A stretch of 40,972 nucleotides of DNA from Thermoguttaceae bacterium (GTDB lineage Bacteria > Planctomycetota > Planctomycetia > Pirellulales > Thermoguttaceae), in NCBI GenBank assembly GCA_025060325.1, contig JANXBW010000035.1, forward strand, positions 1-40,972, in the 5' to 3' direction. Numbering within the stretch: the stretch's first letter is position 1; the number at the start of each line of letters is the position of its first letter. Shown one piece after another: positions 2,980 to 39,838 of this stretch. Made by a program: the position numbers and the translations under genes. The notes under the pieces were generated by a model. The model saw nothing but the letters and a program-made list of their open reading frames with translations. It was not told the origin of the DNA and made no database searches.

Positions 2980-5020
2980 GGTGAAACTCCTTTGAAAAGA
3001 CTTTGCCGCGCCGACCGCCTCTGGATAACCCGAGAGGATAGTGGATACCCCACGGCATCCAATGCATTTAGTTTTCTAAAAAAGAGTAGGCGACAACAAA
3101 AAGAAGACTTTTCCCCTAGTCGTCAATCTCTATGGTCCTCATGTCCCACCAAGTGTCAAGGCGATGGAAAACCAAGATCGGCATGAAAGTTCTAGTGTTA
3201 ACCCTCCCTGCCATATGAAGGAATTAACACAAAAATTGCCGGAGTTGACACGACGTGCAGGGCGAGCCTGTAGCCAACGCCGTCGGCTGTCACGCCCCGT
3301 TTTTTCCAAACCCATTTTGCAAAATTGCCGACCTTTTTTCGAGCCGGGTTTTTACCCAAACATTTACCGGGTCATGAATTGACTGCGATTCGCAAACGCT
3401 AATAAAGCTATGTCGCTAAATTTGCAGGCATTATGCTCGAGACCGACAGCATCAAATGGCTCCAGACGGGAAGATTGGCGTAAGCACCGCGACTCGATAC
3501 TGCCTAACAAAAAGGCTTGCGCTGGCCAACGAGCACGCTGTTGGGCATAAGAGCGGAAACCGAAATAAAGTACATTCGGGGTGCGAACTCGGCCGGGAAG
3601 CCGGAATCTGAGTTTGATTCGCACTCCGCAGCGAAAAGGCCAAGGACTATCACTTCTGCTACGAAAACCACACCCCGAAATCAATTGCCATCGCCGGAAG
3701 AGGTTGTTTTTTATTCACCCTCCGAAGTAACTTCTGCGACTTCCTGCGCTTACCCCCCGGCCTAAGTGGCGCACCCACCGCCTGTGGTGGTGCAGAAGGC
3801 AGAGCCCGCCGTGATGTGGATCTTATAGAAAACTGAGTTTGAACGGCTGGTCCTGAGTGATGAGTCTTACCCTCGGCAGGAGCGGCGCCAGACTGCCGGG
3901 TGTCGATTTACCACCTGCCCGATGGGCCGGAACTGCTGCAGTACGGGCATCAACCTTCCCTGTCGACAAGTTGTCGAGGACCGGCGGCAGACAAGGCGGA
4001 AAAACAGAGTCCGTTGGAAGGACATCACCTCGATACCGGTCGCCCCGCAACATGGACAAATAGCTTGCGTGGACGTTGATGCGGCCCTTATGCCCTTCCG
4101 ACAAACCTGTTGCCAGGGGTTGCAGAGGCTTTGCCCATAGCCTCAATACCTTTTGTAGCGGTCCCTGTTCGGGGGACGTTGTAACCGAAGCGACTAAGCC
4201 CTCGCTTTTAGCCCCGCGTCGTCTAGTTTTCGCCTCTCGCAGGGCCTCCATCTGAGCTGCCGCAGAGAGAAAAGACCCGCCTCCAAGAATTAGCGGGACT
4301 TGAATGGCTACCGAAGATCGCGCTTCGAAGGCGTGCGTTCCCAAGTTGTCCGTCAAACTGGCTTGGGGAAGCATTACCACAGTTGGTTCAGCGTCCCGGC
4401 AAGCTGAACCCGTGGGGTTAACTTCTCTCGGTGGATGTCGTGTCTTAGTGAGAGAGGAGGCAATTTTGTCCGAAGGTAACTGGGCTGAGGCACTAATAAC
4501 CCCCTTGCAGGGACCAAGCTTTCAGCCCGTGGCTTGTCTGTCACGGCCGAAAACGAGCAAATTCCCGTCACGAGTGCCATTTGGGATGCTTGGAGAGTTT
4601 ACTTGCAATTGGTTGCCCACATTGCCAAACCGCAAGCGGGTGGATTTCGCGCTTCGGCCAGCGACGTCTGCAAGATGACGAGCTTCCTTTGCGCAAAGCC
4701 GGCGAACTAATTCACTCGCGTCTTAGCCGGGACTTATGATTGCGACGACATCATTTTGTGAGGTTTTCCCCACTTAGTGAGCTCTCCGCCGGGAATTCGC
4801 CCACCTGAAAAACCGGCCAGCATGGGGGAAATGTTGGGGATGCGAAGTGAGTCTGCTGACAGGTGGATACTGCGTTCAATTGGCGAAGCAGGCCTTCTCG
4901 GGGCCCATCCAAGTATTGAATGCTAATGAGAGGATGACCGAGGTAGAACCTGAAAAGAAACGGTAGAGTTGGAGGGGTTAGGGAGAGGTGTCTTCGGCAA
5001 CTCATCGCTTCCCAAGGAAA
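2980..5020. other. Long gap without a supported gene
   Basis: About 2 kb. Open frames exist on both strands, the longest being 185 codons on the minus strand at 3823-4380. None has a recognisable domain, a ribosome binding site or planctomycete-like protein composition. A short inverted repeat lies around 3774-3794. The first 60 bases probably hold the promoter of the DUF1559 gene. Nothing else can be supported. Confidence 0.4.
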
Positions 5021-5094
5021 TGGCGGCGGAGGGATTCGAACCCCCGACCGACGGATTATGATTCCGCTGCTCTAACCAGCTGAGCTACGCCGCC
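5021..5094 (-). tRNA. tRNA with CAU anticodon (tRNA-Met, possibly tRNA-Ile2)
   Basis: Read on the minus strand it folds as a complete cloverleaf. The 7-bp acceptor stem is GGCGGCG/CGCCGCC with discriminator A. The D arm is GCTCAGCTGGTTAGAGC. The anticodon stem is GCGGA/TCCGT with loop ATCATAA (anticodon CAT), the variable loop is CGGTC, and the T arm is GGGGG-TTCGAAT-CCCTC. The paired first base and the D-arm form argue against the initiator tRNA. A CAT anticodon may be elongator Met or, after TilS modification, Ile; I cannot decide which. No CCA is encoded. Confidence 0.95.
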
Positions 5095-6180
5095 AAACAC
5101 CCGTAACTTTGTCAAAACCTGTTCGTTTTAGCGCTCGGCACGCCTACGCATCTACAAATTCCACCAAGCCTTCGTTTGCTCAATTCGCTAATCGCCTTCG
5201 CGCTTTCGTCTCGCACGAGAAGTGCAATCCACATCAGGAGGCAAGCCCTTCCCCCTACCTATGGGGTGAACCTCAGTTTGCGAACTGCGAATTAAAGCGG
5301 TCCATCTGACCGACTAAAGCTCGACCGCAGACCACCTGCCGCAGCCCTCGCAGGCCCTCAAATTGGAAGCGCCCGGCCAACCCATGCCCAATTCCGGCTG
5401 GCTGACAGGAGAGCCTACTCAAAGCGGATGGAGCCTGCAGCCGCTTGGCTAAAACCAGTAAGGACTCACACCCCCGATCGCGGCTTCGCTTCGGCTTGCA
5501 GTGACATGATGGAATCTTACAAACCCTTCCGGAGCATCCCCCGAAAGCTGAGTCATTTGTCATGATAAAGCCAGCCCACACACCCGACAAGACCGGCCAT
5601 CGCACCCGACGGGCTTAACTAAGCCCTCTGCAACAGAGCCTAGGTAAGTCCAGAAGGGACACCGCCTTCATTCTTAAGCCGCCAAAGCTGGAAGCTACCT
5701 AAGACCTTAAATTCTAGGCCACGCCACTAGTGCCTTTACTTTACCGAAGCACCCCAGTAGGCAAAGCCAAAGGGTCCGCAACTCCGTGGGGAAAACTTTG
5801 CTTTTAGACCAGCGTAGGTCTTCCTGCGAGGTTGGGGCGGGTTACACGGTACGGCCACCCAGCTGTAATTGGGGGCGCATGGCACGGATTCAGAAGCTAT
5901 TGTTTACCGTTCCCCCTGCCAGGCTTGTTAAGGTTGAAAAAAACGTGAAAACTAGTTGAATGGGCAATCTGGATAACATAGCCGCACAAGGTGGGTATTC
6001 CGCTTCTTAATGCCGGCTCCTCCCCGAAAAGGTTGACCAGCACGCACCGCTTACTAGCGGCGGCAGGTGTTACCTTCCCTCACTCGACGGGGTGCTCACC
6101 CCCCCTTATATGGTACCAAAGACCATTCCTCGGATGTGTCGCGTTCTCGCCTAGGGACACGTAGCGTGAAGGCAATCCAG
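5095..6180. other. Gene-free, hairpin-rich stretch
   Basis: No convincing protein gene on either strand. From about 5611 the plus strand has a series of short perfect hairpins: GGGCTT-AACT-AAGCCC (5611-5626), CTCTG-CAA-CAGAG directly after it, AGACC..GGTCT near 5807, CCGCT-TACT-AGCGG near 6050, GGGGT-GCTC-ACCCC near 6090 and ATGGT..ACCAT near 6112. The stretch ends at an intrinsic terminator. A non-coding transcript is possible, but hairpins this small are only modestly more frequent than chance. Confidence 0.35.
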
Positions 6181-15216: not shown

Positions 15217-15561
15217 ATGACGGCGAAGACTGTTTTTCAGCGGATTATCGATCGAGAAATACCAGCGGACATTGTTTACGAAGATGACCGCTGCATCGCG
15301 TTCAAAGACATCCATCCTGCCGCGCCCGTACACGTTCTCATTGTGCCGAAGCAGCTTATTGCCACCGTAAACGACGTTACCCCCGCAGATGAGCCGGTCA
15401 TGGGCCATCTTTTCTCGGCGGCCAAGGCCGTGGCTGCGAAGCTCGGTTTAGCCGGGGGATACCGGATCGTGATTAACTGCGGCCCCGATGCCGGCCAAGA
15501 GGTCATGCATGTACACTTGCACCTCCTTGGTGGACGAAAATTCGGCTGGCCGCCGGGTTAG
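15217..15561 (+). CDS. HIT-family (HinT-like) nucleotide hydrolase
   Basis: A 114-residue histidine-triad protein of the HINT branch, which hydrolyses AMP-N-linked compounds such as adenosine phosphoramidate in the cytoplasm. The triad is intact: HVHLHLLGG near the C-terminus. Other family hallmarks are TVFQRIIDREIPADIVYEDD at the N-terminus, FKDIHPAAPVHVLIVPK in the middle and GYRIVINCGPDAGQEV. Length is typical. The start has GAGGAGAG about 10 bases upstream. It is followed on the same strand by the ABC exporter after 224 bases, so co-transcription is possible but not shown. Confidence 0.95.
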   Translation: MTAKTVFQRIIDREIPADIVYEDDRCIAFKDIHPAAPVHVLIVPKQLIATVNDVTPADEPVMGHLFSAAKAVAAKLGLAGGYRIVINCGPDAGQEVMHVHLHLLGGRKFGWPPG

Positions 15562-15785: not shown

Positions 15786-17774
15786 ATGAGGAGTTTTTTC
15801 CGTGTTCTGAGGATCGCCCTTCGCCATCGTTGGACCCTGCTGGGGGCGATCTTTTGTGCGCTCGGTGTCGGGCTTTTTTGGGGTGCCAATATCGGGGCGG
15901 TCTATCCGCTTGCCGAGCTGACCCTTGGCGGAAAAACCCTTGGCCAGCGGTGGGAGGAGAGACTTCAACAGGCTGAACTGGAGCTGGCTTCCCTTGAGGC
16001 CCGTTTGGCCGAGCTTGAACTGGGCCCGGGTGCCACACCGACTGACAATGTGGACCTCCAGTCTCAAAAGGAGGCTCTGCGAGAACGTATCCGCACGCAA
16101 GAGCGACTTCTTTTTTGGCTTCGAGCGTTCCATCCGTGGATTACGCTTCTTGTACCGAATGATCGTTTCCGCACGCTCATCCTCCTGACAGCACTGCTTC
16201 TTGTTGGGACAGGGCTAAAGTGCGTGCTTCTTGTGGCCCAGTCTGTCCTCTCTGCCCGATTTGCCCATTTGACAGCCTATGAACTTCGTCAACGGCTTTT
16301 TGCGCAGGTCCTCCGACTTGACCTTGCGACCTTTCATCGCGAAGGAATCAGCCAAATTATGTCCCGTGCCACCCACGATCTCTCCGCGATAGCGGGGGGG
16401 TTGGAATGCCTAAGCGGCAAGCTCGCCCGAGAACCGCTGAAAATGATCGCCTGCTTGGCGGGTGCGGCCTTGATCTCTTGGAGACTTCTCCTGTTGACTT
16501 TACTGATCACACCGATTGCGGGGCTTACCATTAGGTGGCTAGCCATGACACTCAAACGGGCCCATAGCCGGGCGATGGCCAACATGGCCGAGCTTTATGC
16601 CGCCTGGGAAGCCGCTCTGCGAGGAATTGCCGTTGTCAAAGCATTCACTATGGAGAAACAGGAGGAGAAACGGTTTCATGCCACCAGCAAAAATTACTTC
16701 CGCAACGCCATGCGGATCGCCCGGTACGACGCGCTTCTTCACCCATTGATCGAGATCTTAGGGATCCTCACAATCGTCCTCGGCATTTTGGCAGGCGGAT
16801 GGATAGTCCTCCGGGGTGAAACCCACCTCTTCGGCGTGCGGATAACCGACCAGCCTCTTGAGTTACCCGCCCTCGTTCTGTTTTTTGGCTTCTTGGCTGG
16901 GGCGGCAGACCCTGTGCGCAAACTTTCCGATGTGCTGGGGCAGCTGCAAAAGGCAGCGGCTGCGGCCGACAGAGTCTTTCAGATTTTGGATCGGCCGATT
17001 GAGATTCGCGATCCTGCCCGACCACGGCGACTTCCTCGGCATTGTCGCAGTATTTGCTTCGACAAAGTTCAATTTGCGTATTATCCCGGTCAACTTGTTT
17101 TGAAAGACATTGACCTTGAAATTGCATTCGGCGAGCGACTTGGAATCGTGGGCCCCAGTGGCTGCGGAAAAACCACTCTTTTAAGCTTGATTCCCCGATT
17201 TATGGACCCAACTTCGGGCCGAGTGCTCATCGACGGCATTGACATCCGCTCAGTGCGATTACGCGATTTGCGGAGCCAGATTGGGTTAGTCACCCAGGAG
17301 CCGGTTCTTTTCGATGACACTGTTCTCAATAACATCCGATATGGCTCTCCCTGGGCGACGCGGGAACAAGTGGAGGATGCAGCGCGCAAGGCCCAGGCGC
17401 ATGACTTCATCGTGAACGATTTGCCTCGGGGCTACGATACCCGCATTGGACCGCTTGGATGCCGGCTCTCGGGCGGTCAGCGGCAACGAATTGCCCTAGC
17501 TCGAGCGATCCTCCGAGATCCCGCGATCCTCATCCTAGACGAGGCGACTAGCCAGCTTGATCTAGAAAACGAAAGACTTGTCCATGAGGTGCTTCAGCAG
17601 TTTACCCGGCAGCGGACCACATTGATTGTTAGCCATCGGCTAAGCACGCTCGCATTGGCGGACCGAATTGTGGTCATGGACGATGGCCGAGTGGTCGACG
17701 TCGGCACACACTCAGAGCTTTTGCGAAGGTGCGGGGCTTATCGGGAGCTTTGGGACATCGCTGCCGCCGCATAA
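15786..17774 (+). CDS. MsbA-like ABC exporter (fused membrane and ATPase domains)
   Basis: A 662-residue half-transporter that would act as a dimer in the inner membrane. TM1 is at about residues 19-40. It is followed by an unusual insert of about 80 residues with a strong heptad coiled coil (QRWEERLQQAELELASLEAR and later KEALRERIRTQERLLFWLRA). TM2 (TLILLTALLLVGTGLKCVLL) and the rest of the exporter core follow to about residue 370. The ATPase domain is complete: Walker A GPSGCGKTT near 456, Q-loop VTQEPVLFDD, signature LSGGQRQRIALARA near 560, Walker B ILILDEATS near 580 and H-loop SHRLSTL near 616. It looks like planctomycete MsbA-type exporters, which makes lipid A or lipid export likely but unproven. 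The start ATG has GGAGGG about 13 bases upstream. Confidence 0.92.
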   Translation: MRSFFRVLRIALRHRWTLLGAIFCALGVGLFWGANIGAVYPLAELTLGGKTLGQRWEERLQQAELELASLEARLAELELGPGATPTDNVDLQSQKEALRERIRTQERLLFWLRAFHPWITLLVPNDRFRTLILLTALLLVGTGLKCVLLVAQSVLSARFAHLTAYELRQRLFAQVLRLDLATFHREGISQIMSRATHDLSAIAGGLECLSGKLAREPLKMIACLAGAALISWRLLLLTLLITPIAGLTIRWLAMTLKRAHSRAMANMAELYAAWEAALRGIAVVKAFTMEKQEEKRFHATSKNYFRNAMRIARYDALLHPLIEILGILTIVLGILAGGWIVLRGETHLFGVRITDQPLELPALVLFFGFLAGAADPVRKLSDVLGQLQKAAAAADRVFQILDRPIEIRDPARPRRLPRHCRSICFDKVQFAYYPGQLVLKDIDLEIAFGERLGIVGPSGCGKTTLLSLIPRFMDPTSGRVLIDGIDIRSVRLRDLRSQIGLVTQEPVLFDDTVLNNIRYGSPWATREQVEDAARKAQAHDFIVNDLPRGYDTRIGPLGCRLSGGQRQRIALARAILRDPAILILDEATSQLDLENERLVHEVLQQFTRQRTTLIVSHRLSTLALADRIVVMDDGRVVDVGTHSELLRRCGAYRELWDIAAAA

Positions 17775-17950
17775 AGCCAGGGATCTTTAGCCAAAGCATC
17801 CAATTCCCGCATTTTTCAACTTATTCAGCTACCGGGGAAAGACTGATCGCGGAGTTCTATTCCTGAGGGCCCAATGACCCAGCCCAATTGGCACGCGTTA
17901 TGCTCACACAACCTAACGACTCTGCGCCAGCGGAGAAGTCACCCCCCAGA
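17775..17950. other. Region after the ABC exporter
   Basis: No gene and no clear terminator directly after the exporter stop codon. If a promoter for the hairpin-rich element downstream exists it should lie here, but no good -35/-10 pair is visible, so that element could also be the 3' end of the exporter transcript. Confidence 0.35.
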
Positions 17951-17952
17951 GC

Positions 17953-18185
17953 GTCCGGCGGTCTCCTCAGACTGTGCCGGACAACCGGAAAGAGGTTTGG
18001 GTCCGCCTCCGCGAAGTGCTCCCCCCGCTTCGCGAAAAGGACCTATGTCCTTGAGAAGCCGGGCCTCCTAGTCCTCACTCCCCCGAAAGAGTGCACGGCT
18101 CTCAGGGGCGCGGAAGTACCCACTTCCGAAGGTACAGGCGAGCTGGTTGGTGCGGCCCGAACCCAGCTCGCCTGTATCGTTTTAA
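17953..18185 (+). ncRNA. Candidate structured RNA of unknown class
   Basis: Six perfect stems lie one after another on the plus strand. They are GTCCGGC-G-GTCT-CCTC-AGAC-TGT-GCCGGAC (17953-17982), CGCGAAG/CTTCGCG (18010-18034), AAGGAC-CTAT-GTCCTT (18037-18052), CACTC/GAGTG (near 18075-18092) inside a longer GAG-AGCCG/CGGCTCTC pairing, CGGAAGT-ACCC-ACTTCCG (18111-18128), and a 13-bp stem ending in a T tract. The terminator side fixes the strand. It does not match the consensus I know for tmRNA, RNase P, SRP or 5S RNA. The overlapping 103-codon open frame (17888-18199) has no domain and its sequence is shaped by the hairpins. It could be a small RNA or a structured 3' region of the exporter mRNA. 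Confidence 0.5.
18131..18184 (+). terminator. Strong intrinsic terminator
   Basis: A perfect 13-bp stem, ACAGGCGAGCTGG/CCAGCTCGCCTGT (18134-18146 with 18163-18175), extendable by flanking T-A and G-T pairs, with a 16-nt loop and ATCGTTTT after it. It ends the hairpin-rich element. Confidence 0.8.
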
Positions 18186-19517
18186 TGCAGCATAATTGAA
18201 CACCTGCTCTCTTTTCCATCACCCTTCAGAGGGGAATTGTCTCTTTATCCCCCCTTAATGGTTATTAGAAGGCCTTCACACTCTTACCGGTTAACATTAG
18301 CCCTTCTTCGTAAGGAGCTAGCAACCTAATCGGTCGTTAGTCAGAGTGCAACCGGCAATTTCAGGTTGAGCCAAGCCGGCCCAGATCGCCGGGGTCCCTG
18401 CGCAAGCAACCCTGTTGAGCCCAAACTTCCCGGACTGGGAAGCCGAATCGGGGCGGGAGGGGGTCGCTAGACCATCCAGGCGGGAACTAGCCTGAAACGC
18501 AATTGCCGAATCATTCGAGCGATTTTTACTGCCGGAGAGCAGATTCCCCATTGCCGCGCTTAGTTAAGTGTTCTTATAAGCACGCTGATGAGGTCGGGCT
18601 TTTTGGCAAGCGGTATTTCCGAAGCGAAAGTTTCCTCTGGTTTTTTGTCTACGGCTGGAAGAAGGTAGCAGCAGGCCTCCAGGGCAAGCAGTTCCAACCG
18701 AAAGTCTCCTCCCGGTAGAAGGATTCGGAGTGCTACAAATCCTTATCGGGCTTGGCGTGTCTAGCCGTTTTTTCGTCGCGGATGTTTGTCGGACGCACGG
18801 AGCGGTCCCGCGGAAAATCGCTGTAGCGCCGTTAGTCCGGGAATTGCTTTCCCCTGAACAACACGACGGAGGTTCAGACAAGCTGGGCGAAGCTGTCGAA
18901 GTGGGATTCCCACTTCGCAAGGGCGGCCTGCAACGCGCCTTCCGCCCGACTTCATCCCACTTGAAATGTTAACAATTTGTGTGGTAGGGACATGGGGGGC
19001 CAAATTACAGCGTTGGATGCGGCAGAGCGTATCCCTACCTAACGATCGGAAAGAGCATCCGTTTCGGCTGGTCAAGCCCGCAGGGTCTTTGGCCGCTTAT
19101 TCTTCGACAGAGGTGGTGCAGAACGAATTTCGAACGAGCAATCTCGTCACAGCGGTACTCTTTCCGATCCCAAAGGTAAGCTGCTCAAGGAACCTGCTCG
19201 GGGCACGGACCGCTCCGTCTTGTTGGTACATCTCCCAAGAATCATCCAAGTTGGGATGAAACTGGCTCCGTTTTTACCAAAATCAAGGAACTGGCCTGAG
19301 AAGTTGGTGAACTTTTGGAACAAATGACACTTAAGCTGAATTGCTGGCTACCAAACGTCTCCGTCCTTGCAGGCACTGGCACTCAACGGCGAGGTGAGTG
19401 TCTGGCTAGGATGCTAGCCACCGGGAAATCGCACTTCCGAGCTTGCCGAGTTCGGGGTTAGACTATCAGTAGGAGGGGGAACTAAGCGGCATCACCAATC
19501 AAGCGGAGGATTTCAGG
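18186..19517. other. Long gap upstream of flgM
   Basis: About 1.3 kb without a supported gene. The open frames (up to 118 codons, minus strand near 18564-18920) have no domain, signal or ribosome binding site. I saw no tRNA. The last 60 bases probably hold the flgM promoter, but no recognisable sigma-28 or sigma-70 boxes were found. Confidence 0.4.
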
Positions 19518-33425: not shown

Positions 33426-33888
33426 GCCAAGAGGAGATCGGCGGTGGCTGGGCGGCCGCTGGTTGGCGTTTCGTGGCTGCTTCTGCCATTCAGGCGGTAC
33501 TCGAAGCGTCGGCCAGAGGAAAGTCCGGGCTCCACAGGACACGGTGGTGGGTAATTCCCACCGGCCGCAAGGCCAGGGAAAGTGCCACAGAAACTAGACC
33601 GCCTCCCGATAGGGCCCCAGCCCGTCGGGCGGTAAGGGTGAAAGGGTGAGGTAAGAGCTCACCAGCAAGCCGGGTGACCGGCTTGGCTAGGTAAACCCCA
33701 CCGGGAGCAAGGTCAAGCAGAGGGGAGTGACGGGGCACATAGCCCTGCCGCGAGCTGGTCCGGCTCGCCAGCGACCCTCGGGTAGGCCGCTAGAGGTACC
33801 GGGCAACCGGGACCCTAGATGAATGGCCGCCACCCCCAACGCGGGGTACAGAACCCGGCTTATAGGCCGCCGCCGATCTCCTCTTGGC
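33426..33888 (+). ncRNA. rnpB: RNase P RNA, class A
   Basis: The catalytic RNA that matures tRNA 5' ends. The universally conserved blocks are present in order: AGAGGAAAGTCCGGGCTCC with CACAGG (from 33515), CCACAGAAACTAGACCGCC (around 33586-33604), GGTAAGGGTGAAAGGGTGAG with GTAAGAGCTCACCAG (from 33631), AGATGAATGGCCGCC (near 33818) and ACAGAACCCGGCTTATAG (33848-33865). Ends were set from the P1 helix: the first 19 bases, GCCAAGAGGAGATCGGCGG, pair perfectly with CCGCCGATCTCCTCTTGGC at the end. At about 463 nt it is longer than the E. coli RNA (377 nt). Planctomycete RNase P RNAs are known for extra helices. Confidence 0.95.
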
Positions 33889-39765: not shown

Positions 39766-39838
39766 GCGCCCGTAGCTCAAAGGATAGAGCATCGGATTTC
39801 TAATCCGACGGTTGCAGGTTCGAATCCTGCCGGGCGCA
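39766..39838 (+). tRNA. tRNA-Arg (anticodon TCT)
   Basis: A complete cloverleaf: acceptor GCGCCCG/CGGGCGC with discriminator A, D arm GCTCAAAGGATAGAGC, anticodon stem TCGGA/TCCGA with loop TTTCTAA (anticodon TCT, reading AGA and AGG), variable loop, and T arm GCAGG-TTCGAAT-CCTGC. No CCA is encoded. The antisense open frame across it is the usual artefact. Confidence 0.96.

Follow-up and report, generated by a model that had tools for sequence, protein, structure and literature searches.

A conserved, probable small RNA gene of Pirellulales with a predicted σ54 promoter and putative activator-binding sites behind its terminator

We identified a conserved structured RNA, absent from the Rfam catalogue and usually found once per genome in many Pirellulales bacteria, which we interpret as an independent small RNA gene that appears to be switched on by the alternative sigma factor σ54 from paired, putative activator-binding sites lying just behind the gene. 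The analysed DNA, referred to here as the window, is a stretch of 40,972 nucleotides from Thermoguttaceae bacterium (GCA_025060325.1, contig JANXBW010000035.1, forward strand). A sequence-only reading had pointed to a compact chain of six perfect hairpins ending in a strong terminator at positions 17953-18185, and had proposed a candidate new structured RNA on the plus strand, either a free small RNA or a long structured 3' UTR of the upstream MsbA-like exporter. The hairpins are real and lie where that reading placed them. Its interpretation as a new structured RNA is likewise supported, and of its two options the free small RNA is favored, whereas the 3' UTR is not supported. The unit is, however, larger than described, since those coordinates miss a 5' hairpin, the promoter, and the conserved DNA that follows the terminator.

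The 233-nt stretch 17953-18185 folds at -119.9 kcal/mol, against -86.1 +/- 4.7 kcal/mol for 200 dinucleotide shuffles (z -7.2), none of which was as low. Folding of 17915-18185 placed helices at 17953-17982 (12 pairs in two parts), 17983-17997 (4 pairs), 17998-18045 enclosing 18010-18034 (7 and 9 pairs), 18047-18109 enclosing two small helices (13, 4 and 5 pairs), 18111-18128 (7 pairs) and 18131-18178 (20 pairs in two parts), the last followed by GTTTTAA. The earlier yardstick, that only about one perfect 5-bp stem with a 3-7-nt loop is expected by chance in this length, proved weaker: four such stems are present against a mean of 1.4 in mononucleotide shuffles, with a maximum of 8 in 500, so that significance rests on energy and conservation and not on that count. 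The stretch encodes no protein, as the copy of a genome of the same genus (G001), 79% identical, aligns with single-base gaps. No Rfam 15 family (tmRNA, SRP, RNase P, 6S and others) matched at the RNA at gathering thresholds in the window and 10 further loci; at relaxed E-values only a sub-threshold miRNA match appeared in the window, and none at the RNA in 6 loci.

In the window, the unit begins with a predicted σ54 (-24/-12) promoter, TGGCACGCGTTATGC, at 17889-17903 (+), in which GG at 17890-17891 and GC at 17902-17903 are separated by N10, and which fits 11 of 12 consensus positions. From the usual promoter geometry, with a start 12 nt after the -12 element, and from the terminator T-tract, the small RNA is predicted to span 17915-18185 (+), about 270 nt. 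A 5' hairpin at 17916-17939 (core CTCTGC/GCGGAG) is followed by a C-rich motif, AGTCACCCCCCAGAG, at 17937-17951, which is similar in many relatives. Hairpin 1 (17953-17982) is followed by a small hairpin at 17983-17997 holding CCGGAAAGAGG, probably a remnant of the GAAGAGG motif of relatives, as GAAGAG itself is absent here. Hairpin 3 (17998-18045) has an inner stem at 18010-18034 with a C-rich loop, and is followed by the branched hairpin 4 (18047-18109) and by hairpin 5 (18111-18128, CGGAAGT/ACTTCCG), which is recognizable by eye in about 18 of the 23 sequences of one alignment (A2, from which locus L032 was left out). The intrinsic terminator hairpin, with core ACAGGCGAGCTGG, lies at 18131-18178, and the putative downstream enhancer at 18173-18221, all on the plus strand.

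A first DNA search of 60 relatives matched in 12 genomes, the window's own included: the G001 copy aligned at 79% identity over 17910-18234, and the rest mostly over the last ~90 nt. A terminator-plus-tail pattern made from these family copies gave 21 stretches in 84,980 species genomes, all titled Planctomycetota or groups within it, and no exact match in viral contigs. A covariance model of the 3' module hit 45 of 119 genomes of the window's family (29 of 40 genera) and 116 of 396 genomes of its order (66 of 144 genera), almost always once per genome. A model rebuilt from 85 sequences hit 10 of 392 genomes of the phylum, the window's own included, all in the same order. The almost always single copy per genome and the absence of exact pattern matches in viral contigs led us to reject an origin from a mobile element or phage.

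The counts that follow rest on 87 extracted loci, which are not a random sample: found by the 3' module and fetched, they cover 44 of the 45 family hits, 41 of the 74 hits in other families of the order, L032 (from the terminator-plus-tail pattern) and one duplicate (L036 = L065), and are thus 86 unique loci. L092 and L095 were dropped as duplicates.

Covariation supports the terminator. Over 84 distinct sequences, 97% of the cells of its helix are paired and 11 of 12 pairs show two-sided changes, which 0 of 500 shuffles reach, while slid versions of the helix fall to 31-44%. In the window's genus (three sequences, alignment A5), 14 of 95 pairs have two-sided changes against a shuffle mean of 4.9, although several helices also have pairs that break in one sequence. 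In a 12-sequence subfamily (alignment A4, without L019), 22 of 73 pairs have two-sided changes (shuffle mean 15.1, 1 of 500 as high), with 74 cells against 26.4, but the number of further pair types is not beyond shuffles (51 of 500 reach it). As these two structures came from RNAalifold on the same alignments, the fraction of paired cells leans towards them. By helix, the 5' hairpin (helix 1 of A4) has 97.7% of cells paired and one of four pairs with two-sided changes, and none in A5; hairpin 1 has two-sided changes at 2 of 12 pairs in A5 helix 5, where 8 depart only by unpaired cells, and at 8 of 13 pairs in A4 helices 6-8; hairpin 3 has them at 3 of 9 pairs (A5 helix 8), and hairpin 4 at 4 of 21 pairs, with 9 that depart only by unpaired cells (A5 helix 9). 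The 5' part differs greatly between subfamilies, and a 13-sequence set from other families gave little consensus fold beyond the terminator, so one full-length structure for the order is not established. L032 and L116 were left out of a further alignment (A3).

Upstream of the copies, a -24/-12 element is a constant feature. Scored against the σ54 consensus, all 87 loci reach >=9 of 12 and 86 reach >=10, whereas only 26 of 2314 control windows of the same loci reach >=10. The scored windows were 440 nt (580 nt for L086, for which 700 instead of 560 nt upstream were used) against 370 nt for the controls; the control windows of six loci came from the opposite orientation and some of them hold true promoters, which makes this control conservative. 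The rpoN gene is present in 110 of 119 family genomes, including the window's own.

Conservation continues past the terminator. The conserved block is a tandem of 17-bp TGT-N11-ACA dyads, resembling NtrC-type sites in length and half-site, although TGT-N11-ACA also fits LysR-type sites. The best-scoring pair has a 2-bp gap in 75 of 87 loci, and 59 of 87 loci score >=10 of 12, against 10 of 4561 control windows and 0 of 172 windows just upstream of the promoter; the score was devised after the tails had been seen. In the window the dyads are of the TGY-N11-RCA type and degenerate (9 of 12): R1 at 18173-18189, an extra dyad that overlaps the terminator's T-tract, R2 at 18186-18202 and R3 at 18205-18221. 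A strict two-dyad pattern matched in 8 of 40 genomes, always at the RNA locus, with a reversed-pattern control of zero; as it missed the other 32 genomes, the window's own among them, exclusivity is shown only for good matches. The tail does not appear to serve a second σ54 promoter, as only 1 of 21 loci examined (L123) has a match >=10 after it, and three more reach 9, one of them inside the terminator. RNA pairing in the tail gets no support either, since the predicted tail helix in A4 (helix 14) has two-sided changes at 0 of 11 pairs and 6 pairs that depart only by unpaired cells. From the dyads we infer a putative enhancer, placed behind the gene and dedicated to it.

The window's genome (G000) has six strong matches to the σ54 activator domain and three weak ones; of the six, four have receiver domains and two have GAF domains. 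One of them, chosen by guess, a 466-aa response regulator at G000:C18:59177-60574 (L144) with no kinase noticed beside it in 5 kb by inspection, was examined for co-occurrence in 45 genomes. An orthologue (best hit >=57% identity, a cut-off set after the search results had been seen) is present in 32 of 33 RNA-positive genomes, the exception (G013) being 68% complete, and in 5 of 12 RNA-negative genomes (Fisher p 1.2e-4, not corrected for kinship). Two of the positive genomes, G040 and G050, were negative with the first covariance model but were found with the second, G050 only at E 0.00102, and have promoter and motifs; counting G050 as RNA-negative gives p 2.6e-4. With one activator of six examined, this co-occurrence is a lead. 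Near another NtrC-type regulator of this genome, and ORFs that look flagellar, there is a good σ54 promoter match (TGGCACGATGTTTGC, L145:3544, G000:C11).

As for INDEPENDENCE, the MsbA-like ABC exporter (15786-17774, +; PF00664 and PF00005) is a neighbor and not part of the unit. It lies 117 bp upstream on the same strand in the window, where the promoter lies after its stop codon, but it is the adjacent upstream gene (44-499 bp) in only 25 of 87 loci, the duplicate counting twice. The remaining 62 lack it there, although in L066 and L091 less than 500 bases of upstream DNA were covered. L046 follows a tRNA gene, L017 by eye likewise, and others have other neighbors. The RNA keeps its promoter in all these settings, so we treat it as a gene of its own. 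Just upstream of the exporter, a HIT-domain protein is encoded at 15217-15561 (+), and a similar ORF precedes the exporter in L016. After the RNA, from 18222 to about 19500, only short ORFs are listed, none over 118 aa.

Two motifs are enriched in the RNAs. GAAGAG occurs in 73 of 87 loci and at least twice in 54, and totals 151 against 23.0 in shuffles; GAAGAGG totals 108 against 7.0. GAAGAG is unpaired at a mean of 0.63 against 0.37 overall. The consensus around it is ggGgccgg.acagaGAAGAGGc, and a GGGGYCGG-like box occurs in 64 loci and twice in 21. CCCCCC occurs 58 times against 12.2 in shuffles and is unpaired at 0.56. The window's genus has lost GAAGAG, leaving CCGGAAAGAGG in the window, but has several C-rich segments. 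Among the 14 loci without GAAGAG is a related subgroup (L024, L034, L047 and L078) that keeps promoter, terminator and tail, and records of two of its members name buffalo omasum and goat reticulum. A search for Hfq (PF17209) found it in 0 of 20 relatives, the window's own genome included. CsrA was found in 20 of 20 relatives with 2-11 matches each: 10-11 in genomes G004, G007 and G008, against 2 in the window's genome and 2-3 in the other two of its genus.

The explanation that we consider best supported, with fair confidence, is a stand-alone small RNA gene of Pirellulales, normally single-copy. In this view, σ54 RNA polymerase would start at about 17915 and stop at the terminator at 18131-18185, while an NtrC-type activator, most likely a response regulator and possibly the L144 orthologue, would bind the tandem dyads behind the terminator and loop back about 300 bp to fire the promoter. 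The RNA would then act in trans, and in most relatives its exposed GAAGAG(G) segments probably bind a partner, more likely a protein than a base-paired mRNA, since no Hfq was found. Our computations establish the structure, the conservation, the promoter match, the dyads with their confinement to this locus where they match a strict pattern, and the co-occurrence with one activator, whereas transcription, activator binding, the identity of the activator, and the trans-acting role are inferred from sequence alone. The binding-motif idea rests on relatives, given that the window's own RNA lacks GAAGAG.

Among the alternatives, a σ54-driven antisense RNA that pairs with mRNAs near ribosome-binding sites through C-rich or GAAGAGG segments, without Hfq, remains possible but doubtful. 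Both motifs are enriched and more often unpaired, and the window's genus keeps C-rich segments; however, no Hfq was detected, and the consensus around GAAGAG extends over about 22 nt, more than a seed needs. It is unlikely that the tail belongs to something else, such as an operator of the downstream gene or a recombination site. In several other families (L110, L112, L122, L129, L131 and others) a protein that looks alike by eye begins after the tail on the same strand, but the tail stays with the RNA when neighbors change, no recurrent σ54 promoter follows it, the strict pattern lies nowhere else in 40 genomes, and the tail pattern has no exact match in viral contigs. A CsrA-titrating RNA of the CsrB/RsmZ kind is also unlikely: CsrA is present in the relatives and the purine-rich motifs are repeated and largely unpaired, but GGA (550 against 655 in shuffles) and ANGGA (116 against 160) are depleted, and GGA is no more unpaired than average (0.38 against 0.37). 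A structured 3' UTR that stabilizes or processes the exporter mRNA is very unlikely, given the 62 loci without the exporter and the predicted promoter before the RNA in all loci. A more speculative reading, which we regard as improbable though not excluded, is a two-part module peculiar to Pirellulales, in which an NtrC-type response regulator has this small RNA as its main or only target, activated through an enhancer behind the terminator, and the RNA sequesters an RNA-binding protein, possibly one of the many CsrA paralogues by a non-GGA motif, through exposed GAAGAGG elements, doing in a lineage without detected Hfq what CrcZ or CsrB do elsewhere.

Small RNAs under σ54 control are already known. 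CrcZ/CrcY of Pseudomonadaceae are σN-dependent, directly activated by the response regulator CbrB, and bind the Crc/Hfq complex (PMC8871633); the present RNA differs in phylum and motif, in the lack of detected Hfq, and in its putative enhancer behind the gene. CrcZ carries A-rich Hfq-binding repeats. GlmY/GlmZ of enterobacteria are also under σ54 control (PMC3162934); their activator is GlrR. The RNA described here has no Rfam match and no known target. The Qrr sRNAs of Vibrio are σ54 sRNAs under a dedicated NtrC-type regulator, LuxO; they are Hfq-dependent, about 100 nt long and have upstream LuxO sites, while here there is normally one copy of about 270 nt. The E. coli glnA enhancer has 17-bp NtrC dyads of TGC-N11-GCA type, and R1 to R3 in the window are 32 bp apart start to start, the glnA spacing; here, however, the dyads lie downstream of the terminator, the half-site is about TGTWKCA, and across the order the regular pair is R2/R3, 19 bp apart. 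Literature searches combining Planctomycetes names with small-RNA terms, judged mostly from listings of open-licence papers, showed no regulatory sRNA described in Pirellulales, and the passages of PMC3930126 that we consulted gave nothing on downstream enhancers. The one Planctomycetes RNA candidate seen, the Rhodopirellula-1 motif (PMC2864571), with which the present RNA may or may not be identical, is a predicted motif reported from Planctomycetes and Proteobacteria, marked there as ambiguous RNA and probably cis-regulatory, without an Rfam accession in Table 1. If our reading is correct, the order gains a conserved regulatory RNA with a predicted promoter, enhancer and candidate activator, all directly testable in species with complete genomes that carry it, a case in which the activator sites of an sRNA are held behind its terminator, and an entry to post-transcriptional control in bacteria with no detected Hfq but up to 11 CsrA matches per genome.

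The only gathering-level Rfam matches in the window lie elsewhere: a bacterial RNase P class A RNA at 33440-33878 (+), with 290 bits, and the genes for tRNA-Met (CAT) at 5020-5095 (-) and tRNA-Arg (TCT) at 39766-39838 (+).
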